DNA of 64,000 bases from Sandaracinus amylolyticus. Lineage in GTDB: Bacteria; Myxococcota_A; Polyangia; Polyangiales; Sandaracinaceae. A program made the translations under genes and the position numbers. The stretch covers positions 496,001-560,000 of the forward strand of contig NZ_CP011125.1 of assembly GCF_000737325.1 (NCBI RefSeq). Direction: 5' to 3'. Positions within the stretch are counted from its first letter, which is position 1; every line of letters starts with the position of its first letter. A model generated the notes under the pieces. It was not told the DNA's origin, ran no database searches, and worked only from the letters and a program-made list of their open reading frames with translations. Shown here piece after piece: positions 5,974 through 43,112 of the stretch.

Positions 5974-6828
5974 TCAGAGCTCGACGACCTCGATGCGGCG
6001 GTTCTGCGCGCGGCCTTCCTCGGTGTCGTTCGGCGCGACCGGCTCGGCGTCGCCGACGCCGATGGCCTCGACGCGCCCCGCGTCGATGCCGTGCTGCACG
6101 AGGTAGTCGCGGACCGCCTGGGCGCGCTGCTCGGAGAGCCGGAGGTTGCGGCGCGGGTCGCCGAGGTTGTCGGTGTGCCCCGAGATCCGCAGCCGCGCGC
6201 TCGGCCGGTGCACCAGGTACTCGACGACGCGATCGAGGCGCGGGAACGAGTCGGGGGTGATCGTCGCGCTGTTGCTCTCGAAGAGGACGTCTTCGAGGAC
6301 GAGCCGCTCCTGCTCGGGCGCCGCCGCGGTCGTGGTCGATGCGGCGGCCGGCGCCGTGCGGCGGTGCCGGCGGTAGCGCAGGGTGAGGCGGATGTCCTGG
6401 CGCGGGCCGGTCGGGACCTCGACGCGCGCGCTCGTGGTCCGGCGGCCGAGGCTCAGGTACTCGAGCTCGTAGCGCTGGCCGGTCGGGACGAGCACCTCGG
6501 CGTATCCGGCGGAGTCGGTCTCTCCGGTGTAGAACGCGCGCCCGTCGGCGCCGGTCAGCTTGACGACGATCCCGGGGATCGGGCCGACGTCGGGATCGAC
6601 GACGAAGAGGCGCATCGCGGCCTCGGTGGCGGTCGCGGTGATCTGCGAGGGGTGATCGCCGCGCGCCTGCCCCGCGTCGTCGGAGCTCGAGAGCTGGAAC
6701 TCGTCGCTCGCGGGGCGCTCGGAGCCCGAGCTGCTCGAGGACGATTCGGAGCTGGTCGACCCGCCCGATCCGCCGCAGCCGATCAGGAGGAGCACGACGA
6801 GCGGGAGCGGAGCGCGACGAAGCGACAT
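5974..6828 (-). CDS. OmpA-family peptidoglycan-associated lipoprotein, 284 aa
   Basis: The ATG at 6828 gives a lipoprotein signal ending LLLIGCGG, followed by a Ser/Gly-rich linker. Residues about 50-140 form a beta-rich domain (MRLFVVDPDVGPIPGIVVKL ... GYAEVLVPTGQRYELEYL) like a carboxypeptidase-regulatory or Ig-like fold. The C-terminal 110 residues are a classic OmpA/Pal domain: 'VLFESNSATITPDSF', 'ISGHTDNLGD', 'RRNLRLSEQRAQAVRDYL' and 'AQNRRIEVVEL'. Known OmpA-C domains bind meso-DAP peptidoglycan, so this protein should tether the outer membrane to the wall. It follows the MoxR operon on the same strand, with a 37-bp gap after that operon's last stop. Confidence 0.88.
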   Translation of the reverse strand: MSLRRAPLPLVVLLLIGCGGSGGSTSSESSSSSSGSERPASDEFQLSSSDDAGQARGDHPSQITATATEAAMRLFVVDPDVGPIPGIVVKLTGADGRAFYTGETDSAGYAEVLVPTGQRYELEYLSLGRRTTSARVEVPTGPRQDIRLTLRYRRHRRTAPAAASTTTAAAPEQERLVLEDVLFESNSATITPDSFPRLDRVVEYLVHRPSARLRISGHTDNLGDPRRNLRLSEQRAQAVRDYLVQHGIDAGRVEAIGVGDAEPVAPNDTEEGRAQNRRIEVVEL

Positions 6829-6865
6829 GGGGCGCGAGGCTACCACGCGCCCATCGCGCGGCGCG

Positions 6866-8668
6866 CTATCCGCCCCGGGCTCGGAGCACGCGCTCGAGAT
6901 CCGAGCGCGCGGGTCCCGTCTCCGCCGCGTGCGCCTTGCGCAGGAGCGCGCCGACGTCGGGATGATCGGCGCGCACCAGGAGATCGCGCGCGATGTCCTT
7001 CTCGTGGCGCTCTCCGTGGCGCACGACGTCGATGAGGAGCTCCGCGGCCTCGATGCTCGGGATCTTGCCGATCGACGCCAGCGCAGCGCGCCGCGTCTCG
7101 ACGTCCTGCGCGTCGCGGTAGATGCGCGAGAGCGGATCGAACGCGTGCCCGAAGTGCAGGCTCTGCACCGCGGCGAGCGCCTCGCGGCGCACGCTCGCGT
7201 CCTCGTCGGCGAGGCCCTTGATGATCGACACGAACGAGCGCTTGAAGAAGAGCTGACGCACCGCGCGCATCACCGCGGCGCGCACCCGCGCGTCCTCGTG
7301 CACCAGCATCTTCTCGAGCGGCGCGAGCGCGGCGTAGATCTCGACGCGCCCGAGGTGGCTCGCGAGCACCGAGAGCGTCTGCGGGCGCAGCGCGGCGGCG
7401 CCGGAGTCGGGCGAGCCGAGCTGCGCGAGACGACACAAGAGCGCGCGCCGCCGCGTGAAGTCGGGCCACTTGTCGTCCTGCACCACCTCCGCCATCGTCT
7501 CGGCGGGATCTCCGGCCTGCTCCCACTCGATCACGTCGAGCCGCCAGATCTCGGGGTACGCGGTGTCCATCCGCAGGTAGTCGGGGAACGACGGCATCGG
7601 CGTCTCGTCGTCCGCCATGCCCTTGAGGCGCTGCGCGAGGCGCGCGTAGCGCGCGCGGCGCTTGTCGGAGAGCGGGAGCGCCGCGAGCTTCGAGTAGATC
7701 TCGCGCACGCGCGAGTAGAGGCCGAGCTCGTTGTACGCGTCGATCGCGGCGGCGTAGCTGTTCTCGGCGAGCTCCGCGGAGGCGCCGCTCTCGATCGCGC
7801 GCTCCGCCGCCATCATGTGGGTCTCGCCGCCCTTGGCGCGATAGAAGCGCGCGTAGGGCATGCTCTGTCGGCGCGCGAACTCCGCCGCCTCGCGATAGAG
7901 CGTCGCCGCCGCGTGGAGCTCGCGGCGCTGGAGCGCGAGCTGCTGGAAGTCCTCGTAGTACTGCAGGACGTAGTACTTGAGGCCGTCCTCGCGCAGGATG
8001 CGCACGCAGTTGAGGTAGCCCTCGGCGAGGTTCTCGAAGCTGCCCTCGCGCCCGATCGTGAGCAGCACGCCGTAGCAGTCGAACGCGCGCTCGCGCAGGC
8101 CCTGGCGCTCGAAGCCGTCGGCCGCGGCGGTGAGCAGGTGCATCGCGGCGACTTGCTGGCGACGCGCGGGATCGTGGTCGCCGAGGCGCGCGCAAGCACG
8201 CCCGAGGTTGAAGCGGACGAGGCCCTGCGTGTACGGGTCGTCGCGCAGGCGCGTGTCGTCGGCCAGGCGCTCCCAGAGGACGCGCGCGCCGCGATCGTTC
8301 TTCGCGAGCTCGAGCTGGATCGCGGCGTGACCGAGCCAGCCCGCGGACTCGAACCAGCGCGCGGCCTGCGCGTGGTCGCGCGCGGTGACGGCGCAGCGCG
8401 CGAGGTCGAGCGGGACGCTCTGTGCGAGCGCGGTCGCGCGCGCGAGGTCGCCGAGGAAGAGCCAGGCCGCGCCCGCCGCGCGCTTGCGGCCGAGCTGCTC
8501 GTAGCAGCTCGCCATCGTGCGCAGGTAGGTGCGGAACTCGTCGTCGATCACGTGCGAGCGATCGACGAGGAGCCAGAGCTTGCCGAGCGCGTCCTCCCAG
8601 CGACCGGCGCGCACGAGCTCGTTCGCGTCGCGCTCGACCTGGCGCTTGTCGATGCCGCCGACGCCCAT
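6866..8668 (-). CDS. TPR/HEAT-repeat protein of the MoxR-vWA operon, 600 aa
   Basis: A fully helical, soluble protein with no signal peptide. Residues 1-370 look like TPR-type hairpins (RTYLRTMASCYEQLGRKRAA, HAQAARWFESAGWLGHAAIQ, LHAAATLYREAAEFARRQ). Residues about 430-590 are HEAT-type repeats (DARVRAAVMRAVRQLF, DASVRREALAAVQSL, DVETRRAALASIGKI). A distinctive linker (PSFPDYLRMDTAYPEIW) lies between. It is the last gene of the operon, 3 bp after the vWA gene. In known MoxR-vWA modules, helical-repeat proteins serve as adaptors or substrates, so a scaffold or recognition role is inferred. I do not recognise the exact family. Confidence 0.72.
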   Translation of the reverse strand: MGVGGIDKRQVERDANELVRAGRWEDALGKLWLLVDRSHVIDDEFRTYLRTMASCYEQLGRKRAAGAAWLFLGDLARATALAQSVPLDLARCAVTARDHAQAARWFESAGWLGHAAIQLELAKNDRGARVLWERLADDTRLRDDPYTQGLVRFNLGRACARLGDHDPARRQQVAAMHLLTAAADGFERQGLRERAFDCYGVLLTIGREGSFENLAEGYLNCVRILREDGLKYYVLQYYEDFQQLALQRRELHAAATLYREAAEFARRQSMPYARFYRAKGGETHMMAAERAIESGASAELAENSYAAAIDAYNELGLYSRVREIYSKLAALPLSDKRRARYARLAQRLKGMADDETPMPSFPDYLRMDTAYPEIWRLDVIEWEQAGDPAETMAEVVQDDKWPDFTRRRALLCRLAQLGSPDSGAAALRPQTLSVLASHLGRVEIYAALAPLEKMLVHEDARVRAAVMRAVRQLFFKRSFVSIIKGLADEDASVRREALAAVQSLHFGHAFDPLSRIYRDAQDVETRRAALASIGKIPSIEAAELLIDVVRHGERHEKDIARDLLVRADHPDVGALLRKAHAAETGPARSDLERVLRARGG

Positions 8669-31257: not shown

Positions 31258-33033
31258 GTGCAATCGTGCGATCCGTCTCGAAGCGAAGCTCGAGTCGGCG
31301 CACGCCCGGGAGGGCGTGTGGCGGCTGACGCTTCGGGCAGCGCGCCGGCAGCCGGCGGCCGATCGGCGTCGTCCCAGTCGGGACCGGATCCGCTGATCGG
31401 CCGCGTGATCAATGATCGCTTCCGCATCGTCTCGCTCATCGCGCGCGGCGGGATGGGCAAGGTCTACCGCGCCGAGCAGGCGCCGCTCGGCCGCGAGGTC
31501 GCGCTCAAGGTCCTGAACCCGAACTACTCCGGCGACAGCGACCCCGAGTTCCACAAGCGCTTCTTCCTCGAAGCGTCGACGACCGCGAAGCTCACGCACC
31601 CGAACACGGTGTCGATCTTCGACTACGGCCGCACCGACGACGACATCTATTACATCGCGATGGAGCTCCTCGAGGGGAAGACGCTCCATCGCGCGCTGCG
31701 CGAAGCGGGCCCGATGGACGCGGGCCGCGCGCTCCACATCGCGCGCCAGGTGTGCCGCTCGCTGCGCGAGGCGCACGGGCTCGGCGTCATCCACCGCGAC
31801 CTCAAGCCGGCGAACGTCTACCTCGTCAAGCACGGCGACGAGAGCGACTTCGTGAAGGTGCTCGACTTCGGCCTCGTGAAGAACCTCGAGGACAAGGGCG
31901 AGGACCTCACGCAGACGGGCCTCTTCATGGGCTCGCCGAAGTACATGTCGCCCGAGCAGATCCGCGGCGAGCGGGTCGACGGGCGCGCCGACATCTACGC
32001 GCTCGGCGTGATCATGTACGAGATGCTCACCGGGAAGGTGCCGTTCGATCGGCCCAACTCGGTCAACATCCTCATGGCGCACGTGCACGAGGCGCCTCCC
32101 GCGATGCGGGAGATCAACCCGAACGTGCACGTCCCGCCGATCCTCGAGCAGATCGTCATGAAGACGATGGCGAAGAAGGCGGAAGACCGCTTCGCCTCGA
32201 TGGACGAGCTGCTCGTCGCGCTCAAGCAGGTGAGCGTCGACGCGGGCCTCGGCGGGCTCTCGATGCACCAGTCGCTGAGCGGCGAGTTCGCGATCCCGAA
32301 CGCGACCGGCGCGTTCGCCGCGGTCGCGATCAGCGGCGACCCGCTCTCGATGACGGCGACGGGCAGCGGGCCGACGCCCTCGCTCACGCCGACCGGCACG
32401 CCGCTGCCCCTCGGCAGCTCGCCGGGCGCGCTCGGCGCGCCGCCGTCGGTCGAGCAACCGACCAAGAGCCGCTTGCCGATCGTGATCGCGGCGGTCTCGG
32501 TGCTGGTGCTGCTCGGCGTCGGCGTCGTCGCGATGAACAGCGGCGCGCCGGAGACCGAGACGCCGGCCGTCACGACGACCGTCCCGCCGCCGCTGCCGAC
32601 CGGCGAGCGACCCGATCCGACCGGCACTGGCGCCGGCACGGGCACCTCGGTCTCGACCGGCGTGGGGACGCCGACGCAGCCGCAGGTCGTGCACACCCTC
32701 GTGTCGCTGCGCTCCACGCCGGCGGGCGCGATGGTCAGCGTCGAGTCGTCGGACGGCGCCACGCGCCAGTACGGCCCGACGCCCGCGGACGTCGAGTGGA
32801 CCGGCGCCGACGCGGAGCGCGGTCGACAGGTGACGTTCCGCTTCGAGCTCCAGGGCCACCGCGACTTCTCGGTGACTCGGACGATCTCCGGCGACGAGCT
32901 CGAGGTGAGCGCGGAGCTGGAAGCGGTGGCAGCCGGACGGCCCTTCCGTCCGCGGCCGCCGCGCCGCCCCGAGGGCGGGGGGACCGACGGTCCTGTGGGA
33001 CCGGTCAAGGGATACAAACTGGATCCGTACTGA
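31258..33033 (+). CDS. Ser/Thr protein kinase with transmembrane segment and PEGA domain, 591 aa
   Basis: The kinase domain spans residues about 50-310. The Gly loop is ARGGMGKVY (62-70), with the VALK lysine at 84, HRDLKPANV (Asp181), LDFGL (Asp203) and SPEQ in the activation segment. All catalytic residues are present. A linker rich in Thr/Pro follows, then a single membrane segment (PIVIAAVSVLVLLGVGVVAM, about residues 403-422) and a PEGA domain (VHTLVSLRSTPAGAMVSVES), which binds surface ligands in myxobacterial kinases. The kinase is cytosolic and the PEGA domain external. It lies 211 bp upstream of the receptor genes and may signal their state. The start is uncertain: a GTG at 31318 is an alternative. 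Confidence 0.93.
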   Translation: MQSCDPSRSEARVGARPGGRVAADASGSAPAAGGRSASSQSGPDPLIGRVINDRFRIVSLIARGGMGKVYRAEQAPLGREVALKVLNPNYSGDSDPEFHKRFFLEASTTAKLTHPNTVSIFDYGRTDDDIYYIAMELLEGKTLHRALREAGPMDAGRALHIARQVCRSLREAHGLGVIHRDLKPANVYLVKHGDESDFVKVLDFGLVKNLEDKGEDLTQTGLFMGSPKYMSPEQIRGERVDGRADIYALGVIMYEMLTGKVPFDRPNSVNILMAHVHEAPPAMREINPNVHVPPILEQIVMKTMAKKAEDRFASMDELLVALKQVSVDAGLGGLSMHQSLSGEFAIPNATGAFAAVAISGDPLSMTATGSGPTPSLTPTGTPLPLGSSPGALGAPPSVEQPTKSRLPIVIAAVSVLVLLGVGVVAMNSGAPETETPAVTTTVPPPLPTGERPDPTGTGAGTGTSVSTGVGTPTQPQVVHTLVSLRSTPAGAMVSVESSDGATRQYGPTPADVEWTGADAERGRQVTFRFELQGHRDFSVTRTISGDELEVSAELEAVAAGRPFRPRPPRRPEGGGTDGPVGPVKGYKLDPY

Positions 33034-33244: not shown

Positions 33245-36013
33245 GTGAGCGAGCCTGCCGCCCGACTCATGGTTCCCATTCCTGCCGATCACAAGCGCCG
33301 TCGTGTCGGCGCGCTGCTCCTGACCGGGCTGCTCGCGGGCATGGCGCTCGCCGCGTTGGATCCGAGCATCGCGTACGCCGACGTGCGCACCGAAGCGCGC
33401 ACGATGTTCCGCCGCGGCATGGCGATGATCGCCGAGGGCAACATCGACGAGGGCGTCGCGCAGCTGCAGGAGGCGTACGACATCCTCCCGCACCCGAACG
33501 TCATCTACAACATCGCGCGCGCGTACGCCGAGGCGGGCCGCTACGCGGAGGCGGTCGAGTACTTCGAGCGCTACCTCGAGAGCGATCCCGCCGATCGCGA
33601 CGAGGTCGTGAGCTTCCTGACCGCGCTGCGCCAGCGCATCGACTCGCAGCAGCAGCGCGCGGTCGCCGCGGCGCAGCCATCACAGCCGACGACCGCCGAG
33701 CCGCAGCCGCAGGTCGAAGCACCGCTCGCGAGCGCCGAGGAGATCCAGGCGCTCGAGGACTCCGCGACGCAGATCGCCGCGCTCGCCGAGGCGACGCAGA
33801 GCGATGCGCTGCGCCAGCGCGCCGAGCGTCTCCGTTTGCTTGCCGAGACGCTCCGCTCGCGCCGCGATGCCGCGGACGTCGACGGCACCAACGAAGTGCC
33901 GGGCACGTCGCCCGGCGAAGAGCCGGGCGAGAGCGGCGGCTCGAGCACGACCCAGGGCAGCGGTCAGCTCGCCGAGGGCGAGACGCAGCCGGACGGCGAG
34001 GACTCGCTGCAGCTCGGGGCGCAGCGTCAGGGCGACACGTACGAAGAGTCGGTCGTCAGCTCGTCGCGTGCAGCGCAGTCGCCGCTCGATGCGCCCAACT
34101 CGACGACGACGATCACCGCGCAGGACATCCGCCTGTCGGGTCTGCAGTCGCCCGCGCTCGTGCTGCGTCGCGCGGCCGGCGTGTCGATCCAGCAGAGCAA
34201 CCCGGGTGATCCGCAGATCTCGATCCGCGGCCTCAACCAGCGTCTGTCGAACCGCACCATCGTGCTGATCGACGGCCGCTCGGTGTACCTCGACTTCCTG
34301 GGCGCGACGATCTTCGGGATGTTGCCGCTCAACATGGAGGACATCGAGCGCATCGAGGTCATCCGTGGTCCCGCGTCGGCCCTCTACGGCGCCGACGCCG
34401 TCACCGGCATCATCAACATCATCACGCGTCCGATCGGCGAAGGTCGCAGCTACGTCAGCGCGAACCTCGGCACCGGCGGACAGCTGATGGTGCGCAGCGG
34501 CGTGTACGCGCGCGCCGATCGCTTCCGCTTCCGCGTCGCCGGCGGCTATCAGCGCGAGGATCAGTTCGCGCGCGAGGTCTCGGACCAGCGCGTCGACATC
34601 CTTCCCTCGGGCCGCGATCCGAACCTCGGCTACGAGCGCCTCTCGTTCCAGGGCGACGTCAGCTACCGCTTCGACGGCGGCTACACGGCGCGCGCCGGCT
34701 CGGGCATCTCGACCGGCGAGTTCACCTTCCAGGGCGTCAGCCGCCTTCGCCAGCTGCGCCCGCAGAACGTCACGTTCGCGCAGACCTACGCGAGCTTCGA
34801 GACCCCGTGGGGCCTCTCGTCGCGCGTGTTCTGGAACCGCTTCAACACCGACGTGAACAACATCGGTCTGATCCCCGGCGGTCTCGACCTCATCCAGGAC
34901 CAGAGCGTGCGTCGCTCCGACGTCATCGACGCGGAGCTCGTGTTCTCGCAGACGTTCGATCTCCTCGGCATCGAGAACCAGTTCATCGGCGGCCTGGCCT
35001 ATCGCTTCAAGGAAGTCGACTGGGAGTGGCTGCGCGATCAGGTGCAGACGCAGCACCACGGCGCGCTCTTCCTCCAGGACACGCTGCGCTTCTCCGACGT
35101 GCTCCAGGTCGTCCTCTCGATCCGCGGCGACCTCCACCCGCTCGCCGGTCCGCAGGTCTCGCCGCGCGGCTCGATCGTCGTGCACCCGACGCCCGGCCAG
35201 TCGATCCGCCTGACCGGCGGCGCGGCGTTCCGCTCGCCCACGTTCGCCGAGTCGTACCTGCAGGTGCCGAACAACACGCCGCTGCGCGGCGTGATGGCGT
35301 TCGGTGTCGGCAACGAGCGGCTGAACCCGGAGCGCCTGATCTCGGTCGAGCTCGGTTACATGAACCAGATGACCGAGTACTTCGCCCTGGAGCTCAACGG
35401 TTATTACAACGTCGTGCTCGACCAGATCCTGCTGACTCGCAATCAGCAGTTCCGACTGGCCGACTTCCAGGGTGGCAATCCGCTCGCGCGTTATTTCCCC
35501 GAGCACCAGGCCTATCCGCTGTCCGCGCTCGAGTGGGCGAACGAGCCCGAGCAGTTCCAGCAGATCGGTGGCGAGATCGGTATCCGCGTCTTCCCGGTGC
35601 AGGGCCTCGACATCTACGCGAACTACGCGATCCACGAGACCAGTCCGTTCGTCGGTTACGACGGGGCGGCCGGTCCGCTCCACGACGACCAGCGCACGAG
35701 CGCGCACATGGTCAACGCGGGCATCCAGTACCGCTCGCCGTTCGGGCTCGATCTGTCGGTCGATTTCTCGTGGCAGAGCGACCAGTACTGGGTCGAGCAG
35801 GAGCTCGATCCCGAGCGCGGCGGCGTCGCGTTCCGCCGCTTCCACCTGCCCGCGTACGCGACGCTCAACGCGCGTGTCGGCTGGCGCTTCTTCGACGATC
35901 AGCTCGAGCTCGCGTTCGTCGGCACCAACCTGATCGACGACGGGCACCGCGAGCATCCGTTCGGTCAGCCCATCGACCGCCGCTTCCTCGGGTCCGTGAC
36001 CGTTCGCTTCTGA
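33245..36013 (+). CDS. TonB-dependent outer-membrane receptor with N-terminal TPR domain, about 922 aa
   Basis: The GTG at 33245 follows GGAGG by 7 nt and begins VSEPAARLMVPIPADHKRRR. A signal peptide ends SIAYA|D. Residues about 45-130 are TPR-like (RRGMAMIAEGNIDEGVAQLQ, NVIYNIARAYAEAGRYAEAV). After a Ser/Gly/Glu linker comes a TonB-box-like stretch (DTYEESVVSSS), the plug domain (ITAQDIRLSGLQSPALVLRR, IERIEVIRGPASALYGADA) and a beta-barrel ending in 'SVTVRF' with a terminal Phe. Such receptors import scarce ligands using TonB energy. The substrate is unknown. The periplasmic TPR in front of the plug is unusual and recurs in the next gene. Confidence 0.9.
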   Translation: MSEPAARLMVPIPADHKRRRVGALLLTGLLAGMALAALDPSIAYADVRTEARTMFRRGMAMIAEGNIDEGVAQLQEAYDILPHPNVIYNIARAYAEAGRYAEAVEYFERYLESDPADRDEVVSFLTALRQRIDSQQQRAVAAAQPSQPTTAEPQPQVEAPLASAEEIQALEDSATQIAALAEATQSDALRQRAERLRLLAETLRSRRDAADVDGTNEVPGTSPGEEPGESGGSSTTQGSGQLAEGETQPDGEDSLQLGAQRQGDTYEESVVSSSRAAQSPLDAPNSTTTITAQDIRLSGLQSPALVLRRAAGVSIQQSNPGDPQISIRGLNQRLSNRTIVLIDGRSVYLDFLGATIFGMLPLNMEDIERIEVIRGPASALYGADAVTGIINIITRPIGEGRSYVSANLGTGGQLMVRSGVYARADRFRFRVAGGYQREDQFAREVSDQRVDILPSGRDPNLGYERLSFQGDVSYRFDGGYTARAGSGISTGEFTFQGVSRLRQLRPQNVTFAQTYASFETPWGLSSRVFWNRFNTDVNNIGLIPGGLDLIQDQSVRRSDVIDAELVFSQTFDLLGIENQFIGGLAYRFKEVDWEWLRDQVQTQHHGALFLQDTLRFSDVLQVVLSIRGDLHPLAGPQVSPRGSIVVHPTPGQSIRLTGGAAFRSPTFAESYLQVPNNTPLRGVMAFGVGNERLNPERLISVELGYMNQMTEYFALELNGYYNVVLDQILLTRNQQFRLADFQGGNPLARYFPEHQAYPLSALEWANEPEQFQQIGGEIGIRVFPVQGLDIYANYAIHETSPFVGYDGAAGPLHDDQRTSAHMVNAGIQYRSPFGLDLSVDFSWQSDQYWVEQELDPERGGVAFRRFHLPAYATLNARVGWRFFDDQLELAFVGTNLIDDGHREHPFGQPIDRRFLGSVTVRF

Positions 36014-36028
36014 TCCGGCGTTTCGATC

Positions 36029-36058
36029 GCCCGCGCTCGGAGGGGAACGAGCGCGGGC
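36029..36058 (+). promoter_or_regulatory. strong hairpin between the two receptor genes
   Basis: A perfect 10-bp GC-rich stem (36029-36038 / 36049-36058) with a 10-nt loop containing ggagggg. It lies 15 nt after the first receptor's stop and 20 nt before the proposed start of the second. It may be an mRNA processing or attenuation stem, or a terminator lacking a T-tract. Confidence 0.55.
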
Positions 36059-36078
36059 CTCAACTCGGGCCTCTCACT

Positions 36079-38793
36079 TTGGCACTCGCACTCGGTCAAC
36101 GAATCCGCTGCTCCATGCTCGTCGCGACGGTGCTCACCGGTGCGTTGGGGATCGGCTCGGTCGCACGTGCAGACGTTCGAACCGAGGCGCGCACCCATTT
36201 CCGTCGCGGCATGGCGCTCATCGCGGAAGGTCGTGTCGACGAGGGCGTCGCGGCGCTGCAGGAGGCCTACGAGATCCTCCCGCACCCGAACGTGCTCTAC
36301 AACATCGCTCGCGCGTACGCGGAGAGCGCGCGCTACGACGAGGCGCGCGACTACTTCGAGCGATATCTCGAGACCGATCCGCCCGATCGCAGCGAAGTGC
36401 AGCAGTTCCTCGTCGCGATCGGAGATCGGCAGGCAGCGGTCGAAGCGCGCGAGCGCGCGCGACAGACGACGGAGCCCGGCGCGGCGTCGACGTCGGAGCC
36501 CTCGAGCGAGAGTCGGCCGCTCGCGACGAGCGAAGAGATCCAGGCGCTCGAGGACTCGGCGACGCAGATCGCGGCGCTCGCGGAAGCGACCCAGAGCGAG
36601 GCGCTGCGGCGGCGCGCGGATCAGCTGCGCGCGCTCGCGGTCGATCTGCGCGGTCGCATGGGCGAGGGCAGCGGCGCGCGCGTCGTGGTCGAGAGCGGCG
36701 GCGGTGGGAGCGCCGGCGGCGAGGCGATCGGGGGCGGTGGCGGCGCTCAGGACCCCGCGGTCGATCCCACGCTCGCCATCCGCGAGGCCGAGGCGGACGT
36801 GTACGAAGAGTCGGTCGTGTCGGCAGCGCGCTTCGCGCAGTCGCCGCTCGACGCGCCGGCGTCGACGACCGTCATCTCGCGGCAGGACATCCGTCTGAGC
36901 GGTCTCTACAACCTGCCCGAGGTGCTGCGCCGCGCGGCGGGCGTCGACGTGATGACGACGACGCCGGTCGACTCGAACCTCGGGATCCGCGGGTTCAATC
37001 AGCGCCTCTCGAATCGAGTGCTCGTGCTCGTCGACGGACGGTCGACGTACATCGACACGCTCGGTGCGACGCTCTGGATGACGCTGCCGGTCGGTCCTTC
37101 GGACGTCGAGCGCATCGAGATCATCCGCGGCCCGGCGTCGGCGCTCTACGGCGCGAATTCGTTCAGTGGCATCGTCAACGTCATCACGCGCCCGCCGGGC
37201 GAGCCCTCGACGGAGGCGATCGTCGGGGGCGGCAACGGCAACACGTTGTGGGGCCACGCGCAGACGTCGGGCCGCATCGAGCGGCTCGCGTATCGCATCG
37301 CGGCCGGGTACCTGACGACGCATCGATTCACGCGCGAGGTCGGCCCGGATCGCGTCGACTATTTCACGCCCGACGAGTACGGCGATCCCGCGGCCGCGAC
37401 CGCCGGCGGATTCGCGAACGCGAGCCTGCGATATCGGATCATCCCCGAGCTGCAGGTCAGTCTGCAGGGCGGTGTCGTCGATCGACTGCAGAACTTCCAG
37501 GGCACCGGCCCGCTGCGCGACTTCATCGCTCGCGGCCCGGTCGCGCACGTGCTCGGCAGCATCGAGACGCCCTACGGCTCGATTCGCGCGTTCTACACGC
37601 ACTTCGACGCGCAGGCGCAGCTCAGCTCGGTCCCGCGCGGCGGCGATCCGGTGCGCGGTGACTTCGTCTCGGGCACGTTCGACGTCGAGGCGGAGTTCGC
37701 GCAGGAGTTCGATCTGCTCGTGCACCACAACCTGCACGTCGGCGCGAGCTATCGACGCAAGACGGTCGCGTGGGACTACCTCGGTCAGGCGTACGAGCAG
37801 AACCACTACGCGCTGTTCATCCAGGACGCGATGCGGCTCACCGAGTGGCTCAGCCTCGTCGGCAGCTTCCGCACCGACTTCCATCCGCTACTGCCCGATC
37901 CGGTGTTCTCGCCGCGCGGCGCGCTGCTCGTGCATCCGTCCGAGCGCTCGACGATCCGTGCGTCGGTGGGCACCGCGTTCCGGACTCCGACGTTCCTCGA
38001 GTCGTATCTCGACCTCCGCAATCCCACTCCGATCCCCGGCGTGCACGTCATCGCACAGGGCTCCGAGATCGCGCGCGGCGGCGTGCTGCAGCCGGAGAAC
38101 ATCCTCTCGGCGGAGCTGGGCTACCGGAACGAGGAGTTCGAGTTCCTCGATTTCGAGATCAACGTCTACTACAACCGTGTGAGCAATCTGATCTCGCTCG
38201 CACAGGTCCAGCCGTTCCGGCTCGCCGATTATTCGGGTGGCGTCGATCAGGGTGATTTCCTGCAGAGCTACTCGCGCGGCACGGCGAGCTATCCGGTCGG
38301 CACGATCACCTTCCAGAACGAGCCGCCGATCTTCGACGTGGTCGGCGGCGAGGCGATGACGCGCATCTATCCCGTCACCGGCCTCGACATCTACGCGAAC
38401 TACGCGATCAACCAGACGTTCACGACCGTTCCTGCGACCGCGAGCGGCGTGTTCCGCGCCGACGAAGCGCGCACGAGCACGCATCACGTCAATGCGGGCA
38501 TCCAGTATCGCTCGGAGTTCGGTCTCGACATCAGCGTCGACTTCCACTTCGCGAGCGAGCAGCGCTGGCTCGAGCAGGTCTTCACCACCGAGGACGGGGG
38601 TGGTGTCGCGTACGGCGAATTCGATCTCCCGGCCTATTACCTGATCAACGCGCGCATCGGATATCGGATGCTCGACGACCATCTCGACATCGGGATCGTC
38701 GGATTCAACATCACCGACAACCGACACAGACAGCATCCCTTCGGTCAGGAGCTGTCGGCGCGCTTCATGCTCACCGTCGCCTACCGGATGTGA
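36079..38793 (+). CDS. second TonB-dependent receptor with N-terminal TPR domain, about 904 aa
   Basis: A paralogue of the gene before it: 'VRTEARTHFRRGMALIAEGR', 'HPNVLYNIARAYAESARYDE' and 'EEIQALEDSATQIAALAEAT' repeat almost word for word. The plug has 'QDIRLSGLYNLPEVLRR' and 'RIEIIRGPASALYGANSFSG'. The barrel ends 'FMLTVAYRM' (terminal Met after Arg, where Phe is usual). The TTG start at 36079 gives a signal peptide with a basic n-region (GQRIR), while an ATG at 36115 would leave none. The linker is Gly-rich. The pair probably arose by tandem duplication and now handles different ligands. Confidence 0.88.
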   Translation: MALALGQRIRCSMLVATVLTGALGIGSVARADVRTEARTHFRRGMALIAEGRVDEGVAALQEAYEILPHPNVLYNIARAYAESARYDEARDYFERYLETDPPDRSEVQQFLVAIGDRQAAVEARERARQTTEPGAASTSEPSSESRPLATSEEIQALEDSATQIAALAEATQSEALRRRADQLRALAVDLRGRMGEGSGARVVVESGGGGSAGGEAIGGGGGAQDPAVDPTLAIREAEADVYEESVVSAARFAQSPLDAPASTTVISRQDIRLSGLYNLPEVLRRAAGVDVMTTTPVDSNLGIRGFNQRLSNRVLVLVDGRSTYIDTLGATLWMTLPVGPSDVERIEIIRGPASALYGANSFSGIVNVITRPPGEPSTEAIVGGGNGNTLWGHAQTSGRIERLAYRIAAGYLTTHRFTREVGPDRVDYFTPDEYGDPAAATAGGFANASLRYRIIPELQVSLQGGVVDRLQNFQGTGPLRDFIARGPVAHVLGSIETPYGSIRAFYTHFDAQAQLSSVPRGGDPVRGDFVSGTFDVEAEFAQEFDLLVHHNLHVGASYRRKTVAWDYLGQAYEQNHYALFIQDAMRLTEWLSLVGSFRTDFHPLLPDPVFSPRGALLVHPSERSTIRASVGTAFRTPTFLESYLDLRNPTPIPGVHVIAQGSEIARGGVLQPENILSAELGYRNEEFEFLDFEINVYYNRVSNLISLAQVQPFRLADYSGGVDQGDFLQSYSRGTASYPVGTITFQNEPPIFDVVGGEAMTRIYPVTGLDIYANYAINQTFTTVPATASGVFRADEARTSTHHVNAGIQYRSEFGLDISVDFHFASEQRWLEQVFTTEDGGGVAYGEFDLPAYYLINARIGYRMLDDHLDIGIVGFNITDNRHRQHPFGQELSARFMLTVAYRM

Positions 38794-38813: not shown

Positions 38814-41021
38814 ATGCGCTCGATTCCCCACCTCGGAACGCTCTGCGTCGGAGTGCTCAGTGCCGGCCTCCTCGTCGGCGGCTGCGACGATCCGAACACC
38901 GACACGTCGCGGCGCAACGGCGGTGCCGGGCCGGATCCGACCGGCGTGATCGAGGGGACGGTCCTCTACGTCGGTCCGCGCCCCGACTGCGTGCGCGCGG
39001 GAGACGACGGCACCGGAGAGCCGACCGAGATCATCGGCAACGTGATCCTCACGCTCTTCGTGTTCGACAATCCGCCGCCGCCGACCGGCAGCGCGTCGAG
39101 CGCGACGAGTCTCCTGACGATCCCCGGCGAGACGATGTTCTCGCTGAACGACTGCATGCCGGTCGACGCGACGGCCGAGGATCGCCGGCCGATCATGCGC
39201 TCGGCCCCGTTCATCTGGCCCGAGCTCGCGCTCGGCCGCGGCGTCTGCGACGACCCGGATCCCGAGAACCCGAGCTGTCCGGGGACTGCCTATCAGATCC
39301 GCGGCTTCTTCGATTACGACGGCGACTTCAATCCGTTCTTCAGCGTGCGCAACCTGCCGACCGCGGGTGACGTCGCGGGCGGCGCGTTCATCAGCACGAC
39401 GGCGGTGCCGCCGCAGTTCCAGCGCATCGCGTTCGGGCACATCGACGAGAACCCGAACGGTCAGGTCGTCGAGGGCGTGGCGGTGACGCTCGGCGCTCCG
39501 GTCGCGACCGAGCGCCCGGTGTTCCAGGTCGCGGCTCAGACGCGCGCTCTCGACTCCCGCGATACGCTGCCCACGACCGAAGATCCGATCGTCCGTGAGG
39601 CGGAGTTGCTCGCGCTCACGAACATGCGCCTCGACTCGATCGTCGAAGCGACGCCCGGCGCGCGGCCCTCGTCGGCGTGGCAGAACGCGTTCACCGCGGC
39701 CGGCATCGATTCGAGGAGCTACTTCTTCGGCAGCCCGGCGTACGGCTTCTACGTCGCGCCGGTCGACGCGAACAACGACGGCATGCAGGACGCGCATCCG
39801 ATCCTCGGCACCGCGCGCATCAACTACTTCTTCCCGGTGCCGATCGTGCGCCGCGCGCGCACGCCCGCCGAGCAGCGCAGCGGTCTGCCCGACGTGCTGA
39901 TCGTCGGCTCGATCCCGCCGACGACGCAGAACGTGCTCACGACCGGTGGCTTCCCGGTCGAGGCGTTCAATCAGGTCCGCGCCGGCATTCCGCCGATCGC
40001 GGTCATGATCACGAACCCGCAGATGCCGAGCGAGTGCCGCGTGCCGATCATCGCGCCCGGCAACACGGCGGAGACGTACGAGCGCATCTGGGTCGATTGT
40101 CAGGAGCTGCCGAGCGGCAACTACGACATCAACCTGCTGAGCGGCCTCGCGGGCGCGCAGATCGTGAACGCGATCGAACAGTGCCTCAGCACGTGCACGC
40201 GTGATCCCGCGACGTGCGAGACGATCTGCAACATGACCGCGCCGCGTCGCACCGAGACCGGCAACACCCACTGCCGCGACAACCCCGCGGCAGTGACGGA
40301 TCCCATGGCGCCGCCGCGCATCTGTTCCGGCAGCGCGTCGGGTCAGGCGTGGTCGGTGCCGAACGAGCTCGGCTGCCCCGACTTCTCGTACCGCATCGGC
40401 GCGGTGAACCAGCTCGATCCCGTGCGCGCCGATGGCTCGCTGCCGCTGTGCGGCGAAGACGGCTCGGTGATGCTCCCCGAGCAGGGCCGCGCGGGCGCGT
40501 GGTCGATCGTCGACGTCGCGGACGACACCACGCCCGAGCAGGCCGCGTCGTTCGATCCCGGCCACGGCATCCCGGCGTGCGAGCGCGCGCGGCGTGTGGC
40601 GACCGGCGAGGAGTCGAGCCCGGTCGCGTACATGCCGGTGTCGAACCCGGCGTGCTGCCCGCCGACGCTCGACGTGTTCTGCGGTCTGCCGCTCTGCCCG
40701 CTGCGCAGCGCAGCGACGGACATCAACGGCGACGGCGCGGTCGACGAGGGCGATCTCATCGCGCCGGATCTCGACCTCGACATGACCGCGCCCGCTCCGT
40801 ACCCGTACCCCGAGGCCGTGGTGCCCGCGCAGGATCCCGCAGCGAGCCGCAGCACGCGCGAGATGCGCGTCCGCGGCACGGCCGCGGGCGACGGCGACTA
40901 CCACATCGACGAGGACGACCGCGTCGTCCCGCACTGCACGCCGTTCCTGATGCCGGCGGGTTGCTGCCAGATCGCGGAAGCGTGCGAGCAGGATCCCGAA
41001 GGCGACGCGTGCCCGCGCTGA
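38814..41021 (+). CDS. large lipoprotein of the receptor operon, 735 aa
   Basis: The ATG at 38814 follows GGAGG and gives a lipobox (AGLLVGGCDD). The mature protein is mostly beta and loop with no recognised domain. It has Asp-rich, EF-hand-like stretches (DYDGDFNPF, INGDGAVDEGDLI, DANNDGMQDA) suggesting calcium sites, and a Cys-rich block near residues 455-480 (EQCLSTCTRDPATCETIC). It follows the second receptor by 20 bp. By position it may be the surface partner of the two receptors, as SusD-type lipoproteins are for SusC, but it does not look like SusD. Confidence 0.68.
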   Translation: MRSIPHLGTLCVGVLSAGLLVGGCDDPNTDTSRRNGGAGPDPTGVIEGTVLYVGPRPDCVRAGDDGTGEPTEIIGNVILTLFVFDNPPPPTGSASSATSLLTIPGETMFSLNDCMPVDATAEDRRPIMRSAPFIWPELALGRGVCDDPDPENPSCPGTAYQIRGFFDYDGDFNPFFSVRNLPTAGDVAGGAFISTTAVPPQFQRIAFGHIDENPNGQVVEGVAVTLGAPVATERPVFQVAAQTRALDSRDTLPTTEDPIVREAELLALTNMRLDSIVEATPGARPSSAWQNAFTAAGIDSRSYFFGSPAYGFYVAPVDANNDGMQDAHPILGTARINYFFPVPIVRRARTPAEQRSGLPDVLIVGSIPPTTQNVLTTGGFPVEAFNQVRAGIPPIAVMITNPQMPSECRVPIIAPGNTAETYERIWVDCQELPSGNYDINLLSGLAGAQIVNAIEQCLSTCTRDPATCETICNMTAPRRTETGNTHCRDNPAAVTDPMAPPRICSGSASGQAWSVPNELGCPDFSYRIGAVNQLDPVRADGSLPLCGEDGSVMLPEQGRAGAWSIVDVADDTTPEQAASFDPGHGIPACERARRVATGEESSPVAYMPVSNPACCPPTLDVFCGLPLCPLRSAATDINGDGAVDEGDLIAPDLDLDMTAPAPYPYPEAVVPAQDPAASRSTREMRVRGTAAGDGDYHIDEDDRVVPHCTPFLMPAGCCQIAEACEQDPEGDACPR

Positions 41022-41101: not shown

Positions 41102-42130
41102 ATGTCACGCAACAACAGGATAGGTTTCGCCATCGTCGTTGGGCTCGCGCTCGCACTCGCAGCGTGCGGCTACTTCACGGGCTCGGTCGCGACATACCTG
41201 CCGCACACGGGTGTCTACGACTTCTCCCGGGTTGCGCTCCTCAGGTCGCCGGATGCGCAGCCCGACCAGGTCGTCCTCTTTCCGACTCCGTCGACCTGCA
41301 CGGTCATGAACGTCGATGGGAGCATGGGAACGGGACAGTGCCGCAGGCCGGGCACGACGGATCCGCAGCTCGGGTTCTCCCTCACCTCCGTCGCGCCCGG
41401 GCCGAACCGGGAGGTGTGGGCGCTGACGGATGGCGGCACGCGCGTCCGGCGTCTCACGTTCAACGCGCTCGGAACGCTGACAGCGATCACCACAGTGATC
41501 TCCTCGACGGGTTGGGCCAACGAGGACATCGCGGTCTCGGGCGACGGAGCGACGATCTATCTCGTCGGAGGCTCGTCGCTCACGGGCTACTCGTCGACTG
41601 GCGCGTGGCTCGGGAGCGTCCCGCTGCAGCGCGACGGCGCGATCTCGGCGGGCAGCCGACGGCGTGTCGCAGTCGATCGCACTCGGGACCGCGTGGTCGT
41701 GATCGAACGCGTCGTGCAGAGCGGGACGCACGCGTCGAAGATGCGCTTCAGCATGCACCACCCCGCGATCGCCGCGAACGGATACTCCGTTCTCCAGCCA
41801 TTCGGCTTCTTCGACGTCGACGTGGCCGGTGAGATCGTCGACTTCGACATCGACGCCGACAACCTCGTCCTCGAGCACAGCGTGGGGCTCGACCCGACGA
41901 CGCTCGAGGTCTTCTACTGGCCGGGCGGTGGGTTTGGCGCCACGCGCTACGGCACTCGGCAGGCCCATTGGTCGTCGTTCGGCAGGGCAGGCTCCCTGAG
42001 TGGCCGCGGCGTGATCGGCGAGATCGCGGCGTGCGGCGGAGCTGGAGGCGCGTACCTGTGGCGCGCTCGCACGAACGCCGGCTCGGGTGGGTACATGCTC
42101 GAGAGGCACACGATCTGCGCCGAGAATTGA
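41102..42130 (+). CDS. propeller-like lipoprotein, 342 aa
   Basis: The ATG at 41102 has an excellent ribosome-binding site (aaaggag). The signal ends in a lipobox (ALALAACGY). The mature part has beta-strand blocks with 'REVWALTDGGTRVRRLTFNA', 'EDIAVSGDGATIYLVGGSSL' and 'RRRVAVDRTRDRVVVIERVV', spaced like a beta-propeller (NHL or kelch type). No catalytic residues are seen. Codon use here is a little less GC-biased than in neighbours. It may still belong to the receptor transcript, 80 bp upstream. The family is not recognised. Confidence 0.65.
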   Translation: MSRNNRIGFAIVVGLALALAACGYFTGSVATYLPHTGVYDFSRVALLRSPDAQPDQVVLFPTPSTCTVMNVDGSMGTGQCRRPGTTDPQLGFSLTSVAPGPNREVWALTDGGTRVRRLTFNALGTLTAITTVISSTGWANEDIAVSGDGATIYLVGGSSLTGYSSTGAWLGSVPLQRDGAISAGSRRRVAVDRTRDRVVVIERVVQSGTHASKMRFSMHHPAIAANGYSVLQPFGFFDVDVAGEIVDFDIDADNLVLEHSVGLDPTTLEVFYWPGGGFGATRYGTRQAHWSSFGRAGSLSGRGVIGEIAACGGAGGAYLWRARTNAGSGGYMLERHTICAEN

Positions 42131-42142
42131 CCCCCGCGTCGA

Positions 42143-42164
42143 CGGCGCCCATCATCGGGCGCCG
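42143..42164 (+). promoter_or_regulatory. perfect hairpin touching the ribF start codon
   Basis: An 8-bp stem (cggcgccc / gggcgccg) with a 6-nt loop ends at the base before the ribF ATG, and starts 13 nt after the preceding stop. No Shine-Dalgarno sequence is left free between stem and start. It may be a terminator for the lipoprotein gene or a translation block for ribF. Confidence 0.55.
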
Positions 42165-43112
42165 ATGACGCGAGGGCGACGCACCGCGGTGATCCCCGGC
42201 AACCACGACGGTGTGCACGCCGGGCACCGCGCGCTGATCGACGAGGCCCGCCGGCGCGCCGCGATGTCGCAGGCGAGCGGTGCGGGCCTCGACGTCGTTC
42301 CGCTCACCTTCGATCCGCATCCGCTCGCCGTGCTCGCGCCCGAGCGCGCGCCGGTGCCGATCACGACGATCGCGCGGCGCATCGAGCTGCTGCGCGCGGC
42401 GGGCGCGGACGACGTCGCGGTCGCGCGCTTCGACGCGGCGTACGCGGCGCGCACCGCGGACGAGTTCGTCGAGCACGTGCTCGTCGACGAGCTCGCTGCG
42501 CGCGAGGTGATCGTCGGGCCCGACTTCCGGTTCGGCGCGGGTCGCACCGGCACGATCGATCGACTGCGCGAGCTCGGTTCCGCGCATGGCTTCGGCGTGA
42601 CCGAGGTCGCGCCGGTCGAGCTCCCCGACGTCGGCCGCGTGAGCTCGACGCGAGTGCGCGAGGCGCTGCGCGAGGGCGCGATCGACCGCGCGACGCGCAT
42701 GCTCGGCCGCGTGCACGAGGTCGACGGAACGATCGTCGAGGGCTTTCGTCGCGGCCGCACGATCGGCTTCCCGACCGCGAACCTCGACTGCGACCCCGTT
42801 CTCATGCCGCTCGACGGCGTGTACGCGGTGGTCGCGCGCGTGATCGCGCCACAGCGCGATCCGCAACTGCTGCGCGGCGTCGCCAACCTCGGCACGCGGC
42901 CGACGTTCGCCGCAGGGCGCTCGGTCGAGGTCCACCTGTTCGACTTCACCGGCGACCTCTACGGCGCGCGCCTGCGCGTCGGCTTCGTCGCGCGCCTGCG
43001 CGGTGAGCAGAAATTCGACGGCATCGACGCACTTCGGGCACAGATCGCCACGGACGCCCAGGCGGCGCGCGCGCGGCTCGTCGACGACGAGCCGACGTGG
43101 AGGCTCCTCTGA
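42165..43112 (+). CDS. ribF: bifunctional riboflavin kinase / FAD synthetase (RibF), 315 aa
   Basis: The N-terminal FAD synthetase domain opens with PGNHDGVHAGHRALI, the nucleotidyl-transferase motif usually written GNFDGVHLGH. The Phe is His here. 'RVSSTRVREALREGAIDRA' is the ISSTxIR motif. The C-terminal flavokinase domain has 'RTIGFPTANL', 'GVYAVVARV', 'NLGTRPTF' and 'VEVHLFDFTGDLYG'. The enzyme turns riboflavin into FMN and FAD in the cytosol. Length is typical. It overlaps the next gene by 16 bp. Its start abuts a hairpin, with no visible ribosome-binding site. Confidence 0.93.
   Translation: MTRGRRTAVIPGNHDGVHAGHRALIDEARRRAAMSQASGAGLDVVPLTFDPHPLAVLAPERAPVPITTIARRIELLRAAGADDVAVARFDAAYAARTADEFVEHVLVDELAAREVIVGPDFRFGAGRTGTIDRLRELGSAHGFGVTEVAPVELPDVGRVSSTRVREALREGAIDRATRMLGRVHEVDGTIVEGFRRGRTIGFPTANLDCDPVLMPLDGVYAVVARVIAPQRDPQLLRGVANLGTRPTFAAGRSVEVHLFDFTGDLYGARLRVGFVARLRGEQKFDGIDALRAQIATDAQAARARLVDDEPTWRLL

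Follow-up and report, generated by a model that had tools for sequence, protein, structure and literature searches.

Myxobacteria encode very many Ser/Thr kinases, the inputs of which are mostly unknown, and the locus described here raises the question of what two outer-membrane receptors encoded next to one such kinase are doing with a TPR domain in the periplasm. The window, by which we mean the whole 64,000-nucleotide stretch of Sandaracinus amylolyticus DNA that was analyzed, carries on its + strand, in this order, a Ser/Thr kinase, two TonB-dependent receptors (TBDR1 and TBDR2), a 735-aa lipoprotein, a small lipoprotein-like protein, and RibF. A preliminary description had proposed that the TPR recruits a periplasmic partner, perhaps the PEGA domain of the kinase or the neighboring lipoprotein.

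Two receptors with a TPR domain ahead of the plug

TBDR1 (33245..36013, + strand, GTG start, 922 aa) and its tandem paralogue TBDR2 (36079..38793, + strand, TTG start, 904 aa, with an ATG at 36115 as the alternative) are 46% identical across 930 columns, and the pair is therefore a duplication. Both are laid out in the same order: signal peptide, small TPR, linker, TonB-box-like segment, plug, and barrel. Pfam recognizes the TPR in each (TPR_2, E 5.7e-10 in TBDR1 and 1.2e-10 in TBDR2; TPR_19, E 7.2e-9 and 6.5e-10), and the Plug (PF07715; E 4.2e-24 and 2e-22) and TonB receptor barrel (PF00593; E 8e-25 and 2.5e-23) families score above cut-off in both, which confirms that these are tandem TonB-dependent receptors, each with a TPR ahead of the plug, as had been described. 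In receptor 1, on the + strand, the five-helix TPR domain occupies 33377..33673 (Pfam, with AlphaFold2, Foldseek, and VIA-align), and Pfam places the plug at 34085..34411 and the β-barrel at 34616..35932; in receptor 2, also on the + strand, it places the TPR domain at 36187..36411 and the plug at 36847..37173. The contention that a TPR here replaces the STN domain is likewise borne out: STN gave no Pfam match up to E 0.1 in either receptor, the TPR standing there instead.

An AlphaFold2 model of residues 45-406 of receptor 1, based on an alignment with nine relatives, has five helices over mature residues 1-99, with a pLDDT of 87-95 up to residue 90. The TPR is followed by a disordered stretch and then by a helical hairpin, residues 120-168 (33734..33880, + strand; alignment and AlphaFold2), which contains EEIQALEDSATQIAALAEAT, is clade-specific, and is modeled with a pLDDT of 92-94 across most residues. 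A second disordered linker (170-238, about 70 residues) leads to the plug, where confidence is moderate to low. Foldseek and VIA-align match model residues 1-99 to TPR proteins (for CTPR2, 1na3, Z 12.7 and 1.9 Å over 85 residues), the VIA-align matches including consensus TPRs, MamA, and the peptide-binding domain of collagen prolyl hydroxylase, while the plug is matched by Foldseek to CirA, BtuB, and FepA. Because a peptide-binding domain is among the matches to the TPR fold, a TPR this small can in principle bind a short peptide, although a match of fold shows no function. An Hsp90-type carboxylate clamp was considered and set aside; the clamp Lys/Asn of repeat 1 are absent when the domain is read against Hop TPR1.

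In a 25-member alignment of the receptors, the TPR, box, and plug are found in every member, and Pfam TPR_19 is found in 24. A Y-E-E-x-V-V segment is conserved ahead of the plug; in receptor 1 it lies in the region of TYEESVVSS (34034..34066, + strand) and may function as a TonB box. The near-identical linker noted at the outset holds for the pair, with EEIQALEDSATQIAALAEAT being the same string in TBDR1 and TBDR2, but it is a feature of a clade: the f5, f7, and f12 members have a different helix at this position or none. The EEIQAL linker, entertained as the key element, was rejected as essential because it is absent outside the f1/f3/f4 clade to which the window belongs.

Distribution of the receptors and of the TPR type

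Of 187 genomes sampled across the phylum, 34 have full-length relatives of the receptors (family A; E ≤ 1e-40), with the TPR retained throughout. TPR-plug fusions therefore exist well beyond the window, and a local oddity of one genome is ruled out. Within the class, 9 of 144 sampled genomes have family A at E ≤ 1e-40, all of them from one order, that of the window, and the members from other classes come from the 187-genome phylum sample. At E ≤ 1e-20, there is a match in 32 of 56 genomes, S. amylolyticus included and most being of the same order. A scan of named genomes yielded at least nine true family A members (L092-L100), labeled as Myxococcota, Polyangiaceae, and “Deltaproteobacteria” or “Proteobacteria/Pseudomonadota” MAGs, plus Polyangium sp. 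6x1.

The genome of S. amylolyticus (10.33 Mb, one contig) contains 24 plug matches. Reading the N termini of the other 22 plug proteins revealed one further receptor with a visible TPR, at ~7.698 Mb, in which three PEGA domains are present as well. The TPR type as such gave 55 matches across the genome, and the alternative raised earlier, that it is a common myxobacterial variant, is correct to that extent; yet it is conserved in family A and enriched downstream of kinases. At least 10 of the 55 lie within 3 kb downstream of a kinase on the same strand, where 1.2 would be expected and none of 500 random placements gave more than 5; the 10 is a lower bound because the count is based on 150 listed kinases (the genome has 153 kinase matches). 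The TPR type thus accompanies kinases more often than chance would allow, a pattern of which the receptor fusions represent one branch. Myxobacterial pairs of a kinase and a secreted TPR(-PEGA) gene likewise have this TPR type directly downstream of the kinase, whereas in the window it is fused to an outer-membrane TonB receptor. Two of the S. amylolyticus kinase matches, at 6708-7499 and 606106-606897, agree exactly in score, range, and frame length, suggesting that one arose from the other by recent duplication.

A conserved gene neighborhood

Ser/Thr kinase, TPR-TBDR, and lipoprotein form a conserved three-gene unit across the phylum. The neighborhood count covers 62 loci, with the window excluded and L094, L095, and L096 left out as duplicates of L240, L218, and L073. 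The TPR is recognized in 61 of these, the exception (L064) being cut by a contig end, and the match is weak in L230 (28 bits) and in the truncated L229 (38 bits). Of the 56 informative loci, 42 have a kinase as the immediate upstream neighbor of the TPR-TBDR (41 identified by script and L216 by reading); six of the 62 are cut by contig ends and 14 have none. The immediate downstream neighbor is a homologue of the lipoprotein in 54 of 60 informative loci, making the lipoprotein the steadier companion.

The lipoprotein of the window (38814..41021, + strand) has the lipobox LVGGC, with the Cys codon at 38883, and matched no Pfam family; its AlphaFold2 model has a mean pLDDT of 38 and gave no significant match in the PDB. 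Probably it works with the receptor in ligand capture. Beyond it lie a further small protein, the sequence of which has a lipoprotein-like signal (41102-42130, + strand), and RibF (FAD synthetase/riboflavin kinase; 42087..43112, + strand), recognized by Pfam and from the neighborhoods as a frequent downstream neighbor; genomes in which RibF comes after the unit are numerous and belong to several families.

The kinase and its C-terminal tag

The kinase (31258..33033, + strand) is a Hanks-type Ser/Thr kinase of 591 aa (Pkinase, E 1.9e-46) with a single transmembrane stretch followed by a periplasmic tail. The hydrophobic stretch LPIVIAAVSVLVLLGVGVVAM (32473..32541, + strand), read from the sequence, is the presumed membrane crossing. 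It is followed by a PEGA-like segment and a low-complexity linker (32542..33009, + strand; read by eye and below Pfam) and finally by the tag GYKLDPY (33010..33030, + strand), which is conserved among adjacent kinases and which we propose as the ligand of the TPR. PEGA (PF08308) gave no Pfam match in this tail up to E 10, so the label “PEGA-like” comes from sequence reading. The tails of adjacent kinases are variable in length and content, with a PEGA-like part in some and none in others, and the kinases of L095, L098, L099, and L100 have no PEGA recognizable by eye, yet have the tag or a variant at the end. Because kinases that lack PEGA retain the tag or a variant of it, the kinase C terminus is a better candidate for the TPR ligand than PEGA, the case for which as the contact site is further weakened by its absence from the Pfam matches of the window kinase. 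The proposal that the TPR recruits a neighbor therefore stands in part: kinase and lipoprotein are both conserved beside TPR-TBDRs phylum-wide, but PEGA has given way to the C terminus.

The tag is typically GY[K/R]xxPY, with forms that include GYKLDPY (window), GYKAEPY, GYKGSPY, GYKSNPY, GYREW, and FKDSPY and, in other classes, GYKANPFD, GYMPLPDDF, and GYLGFPEDF. A loose pattern, written like the other tag patterns after the tails had been seen, fits 38 of 42 adjacent kinases (37 of 41 plus L216) and 1 of 38 random S. amylolyticus kinases that are not beside this TPR (38 of 40, with two left out because they end outside the stretch read). Pairwise identity, computed without gaps, is 0.19 over the last 8 residues compared with 0.10 over residues 17-40 from the end in family A kinases, 0.42 compared with 0.10 in the kinases of family B (described below), and 0.08 compared with 0.09 in the controls, such that in both families the last 8 residues are two to four times as conserved as the preceding linker. 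The tag is a conserved island within a variable kinase tail. The tags are conserved within orthologous kinase groups, and each group thus represents one evolutionary line rather than many independent cases.

Several of the 14 loci without an adjacent kinase have a kinase elsewhere in the genome. L082, L232, and L241 are extra copies, another copy in those genomes having a kinase, and for L066, L067, L074, and L075 the best-matching kinase is unlinked and retains the tag. The genome of L236 has an unlinked kinase (L253) that ends EGYMGLPEDF, while that of L222 (G210) has three kinases at E ≤ 1e-60, all of them without a terminal tag A; the others are L065, L080, L081, L234, and L237. In all four f5 genomes (G013, G049, G055, and G027), where the kinase is not adjacent, its best relative elsewhere ends GYRx[DN]VY. 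Upstream of the TPR receptor in G049, where the kinase is missing, a gene on the - strand (L066:11268-12680) looks by eye like an FHA-containing regulator and is perhaps a replacement signaling partner.

Within S. amylolyticus, the exact GY[KR]xxPY followed by a stop occurs twice, in the window kinase and in L190 (5691030-5692565), a kinase that ends GYRDSPY, has no TPR gene beside it, and may share the receptor. The other TPR-adjacent kinases of this genome have an aromatic last residue in only 4 of 9 cases. Kinases beside its secreted TPR(-PEGA) proteins (L083, L086, L088, and L089) end DNPY, RQW, RTEW, and ATEW, possibly further tags, and other f5 kinases (L256, L257, and L260, of genomes G049, G055, and G013) end PYHRWND, PYPRWSD, and PYQTFEGM, perhaps a third tag type.

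A second receptor family for comparison

The third TPR receptor of S. amylolyticus represents family B, in which a TPR, three PEGA domains, and a plug are combined; it is found in 22 of 112 phylum genomes, and its receptor gene also follows a kinase gene. Tails were readable at 20 of 24 family B loci, of which L295 was dropped because its match ends before the plug. All 19 of the remaining kinases end in R, typically in D[DE]IRxxR or close to it, and the tag B pattern fits 18 of the 19 compared with 2 of 38 controls. There is no overlap between the two sets: tag A occurs in 0 of 19 family B kinases and tag B in 0 of 41 family A kinases. The TPRs also differ. Position 9 of the TPR alignment is R in 60 of 64 family A sequences and D in 14 of 15 from family B, and positions 52-53 are mostly A and then D/E in family A compared with E and then Q in family B, the E at position 52 being found in 15 of 15 rows; N46 and R49 are common to both. 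By TPR consensus numbering, these positions point into the groove, and the acidic changes of the family B TPR would suit the basic tag B, though that is no more than a hint. In one family B locus (L279; G210, C1:99413-101785), the receptor match spans two TGA codons, indicating either a decayed gene or a sequence error.

A proposed trans-envelope coupling and its alternatives

We consider it an even call that the TPR serves as the docking site for the tag at the C terminus of the cognate trans-envelope kinase, in a coupling that would resemble that of FecA and FecR but be built from other parts. The receptors would be the outer-membrane ends of a trans-envelope signaling unit. From the inner membrane, the Ser/Thr kinase would extend a flexible periplasmic tail ending in the tag (GY[K/R]xxPY and variants), and from the other side the receptor would extend its TPR into the periplasm on a flexible linker, N-terminal to the TonB box, to bind the tag of its own kinase. 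Because the TPR is flexibly tethered on the N-terminal side of the TonB box, a bound ligand or a pull from TonB on the receptor N terminus could alter access to the tag and hence the state of the kinase. The co-encoded lipoprotein would help the receptor to capture its ligand. The AlphaFold2 model, with a rigid TPR on disordered linkers ahead of the TonB box, is consistent with such docking, and in its favor are also the conserved unit, the tag as an island in a variable tail, its retention in unlinked f5 kinases, the different tag of family B, and the enrichment of the TPR type downstream of kinases. Against it weigh the 14 of 56 informative loci that have no adjacent kinase, the lack of a tag A kinase among the three of G210, the tag A kinase L190 with no adjacent TPR gene, the aromatic end in only 4 of the 9 other TPR-adjacent kinases, the greater steadiness of the lipoprotein, and the descent of each tag group from one evolutionary line. 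We infer the binding itself, the direction of signaling, the ligand, and the role of the lipoprotein. A broader reading, plausible but somewhat doubtful, is that Myxococcota use a peptide code in which family-specific kinase tags (GY[K/R]xxPY; DIRxxR; perhaps xEW and NPY) dock in the TPR of their own receptor, forming a direct mechanical or signaling link across the envelope.

The family comparison bears on the rather unlikely alternative of a generic module, in which the TPR contacts peptidoglycan, TonB, or an assembly factor in the periplasm or serves receptor oligomerization, with the tags having some other purpose and the neighborhood reflecting co-regulation only. Such a module might well be as common as this TPR type is in S. 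amylolyticus and would not need the adjacent kinase that 14 of 56 informative loci lack, but it would not lead one to expect that the TPRs of families A and B differ at the conserved positions 9 and 52 while the tags differ in parallel. The steadiness of the lipoprotein, which comes right after the receptor in 54 of 60 informative loci and also where the kinase is not adjacent, could be taken to mean that the TPR binds this protein, whether in delivering it to the cell surface, as the TPR of Slam/DUF560 proteins may do, or in holding a receptor-lipoprotein complex together. Slam/NilB proteins combine a periplasmic TPR domain with a barrel in the outer membrane and have lipoproteins as their partners (PMC8406197). 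This TPR type, however, also stands beside kinases in numerous non-receptor proteins, occurs in receptors with neither neighbor (L065, L080, and L082), and in Polyangium sp. 6x1 (L093) is found in a TPR-TBDR with a kinase and no lipoprotein match, and we regard binding of the lipoprotein as unlikely. Very improbable is that the receptor exports a protein that the TPR binds as cargo: myxobacteria do have a TonB-dependent transporter with a protease as its export cargo, namely Oar for PopC in Myxococcus (quoted in PMC8406197), but no conserved protease or soluble cargo gene was noticed and the constant partners are kinase and lipoprotein, with the proviso that the neighborhoods were searched with the window's own genes, so that an unrelated cargo gene could have been missed.

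If the pairing of tag and TPR is correct, then a sensor could be assigned to many kinases from sequence alone. The signal for the present unit would enter through an outer-membrane receptor, and there would be a second route, besides FecA/FecR, from a TonB receptor to the cytoplasm. In the open-access literature, judged from listings, we recognized no paper on TPR-TonB receptor fusions and found none that joins “TonB-dependent receptor” and “PEGA domain.”

Relation to known systems

In the TonB receptor FecA, a distinct periplasmic domain at the N terminus precedes the TonB box, and the receptor is genetically linked to the inner-membrane protein FecR, which has a periplasmic part. The window resembles FecA-FecR-FecI in having a periplasmic domain in this position and a gene linkage to an inner-membrane protein that reaches into the periplasm. 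Unlike FecA, its receptors have a TPR and not an STN domain, and the partner is a Ser/Thr kinase rather than an anti-sigma factor, with a C-terminal peptide tag as the proposed ligand. FecR- and FecI-like genes are absent from the five neighbors scanned, among which Pfam recognized the kinase and RibF and gave no match for the other three.

In SusC/SusD systems, the gene for a TonB receptor is followed by one for a lipoprotein, and the window shares this order with SusC/RagA. Its N-terminal extension, however, is a TPR and not CarboxypepD_reg-like, and its lipoprotein belongs to no Pfam family; the SusC/RagA model TIGR04056 scores 46.2 bits in TBDR1, against a cut-off of 368.25, and is not among the best 25 matches of TBDR2. 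With Slam/DUF560 proteins (TXISS) such as NilB (PMC8406197), the receptors share a periplasmic TPR ahead of an outer-membrane barrel and a lipoprotein neighbor. In contrast to these, both the barrel and the plug in the window are of the TonB receptor type (PF07715 and PF00593), and the DUF560 barrel (PF04575) gave no match in either receptor up to E 0.1.

The TPR is not the only domain found ahead of a plug in S. amylolyticus. Three proteins (L012, L019, and L022) resemble fusions of a TonB domain and a plug by eye, although they fall below Pfam, and four TonB receptors (L015, L016, L018, and L020, at 9.765, 3.236, 2.360, and 8.188 Mb) have a TonB C-terminal domain (PF03544) before the plug, thereby combining a receptor and part of its energizer in one chain.
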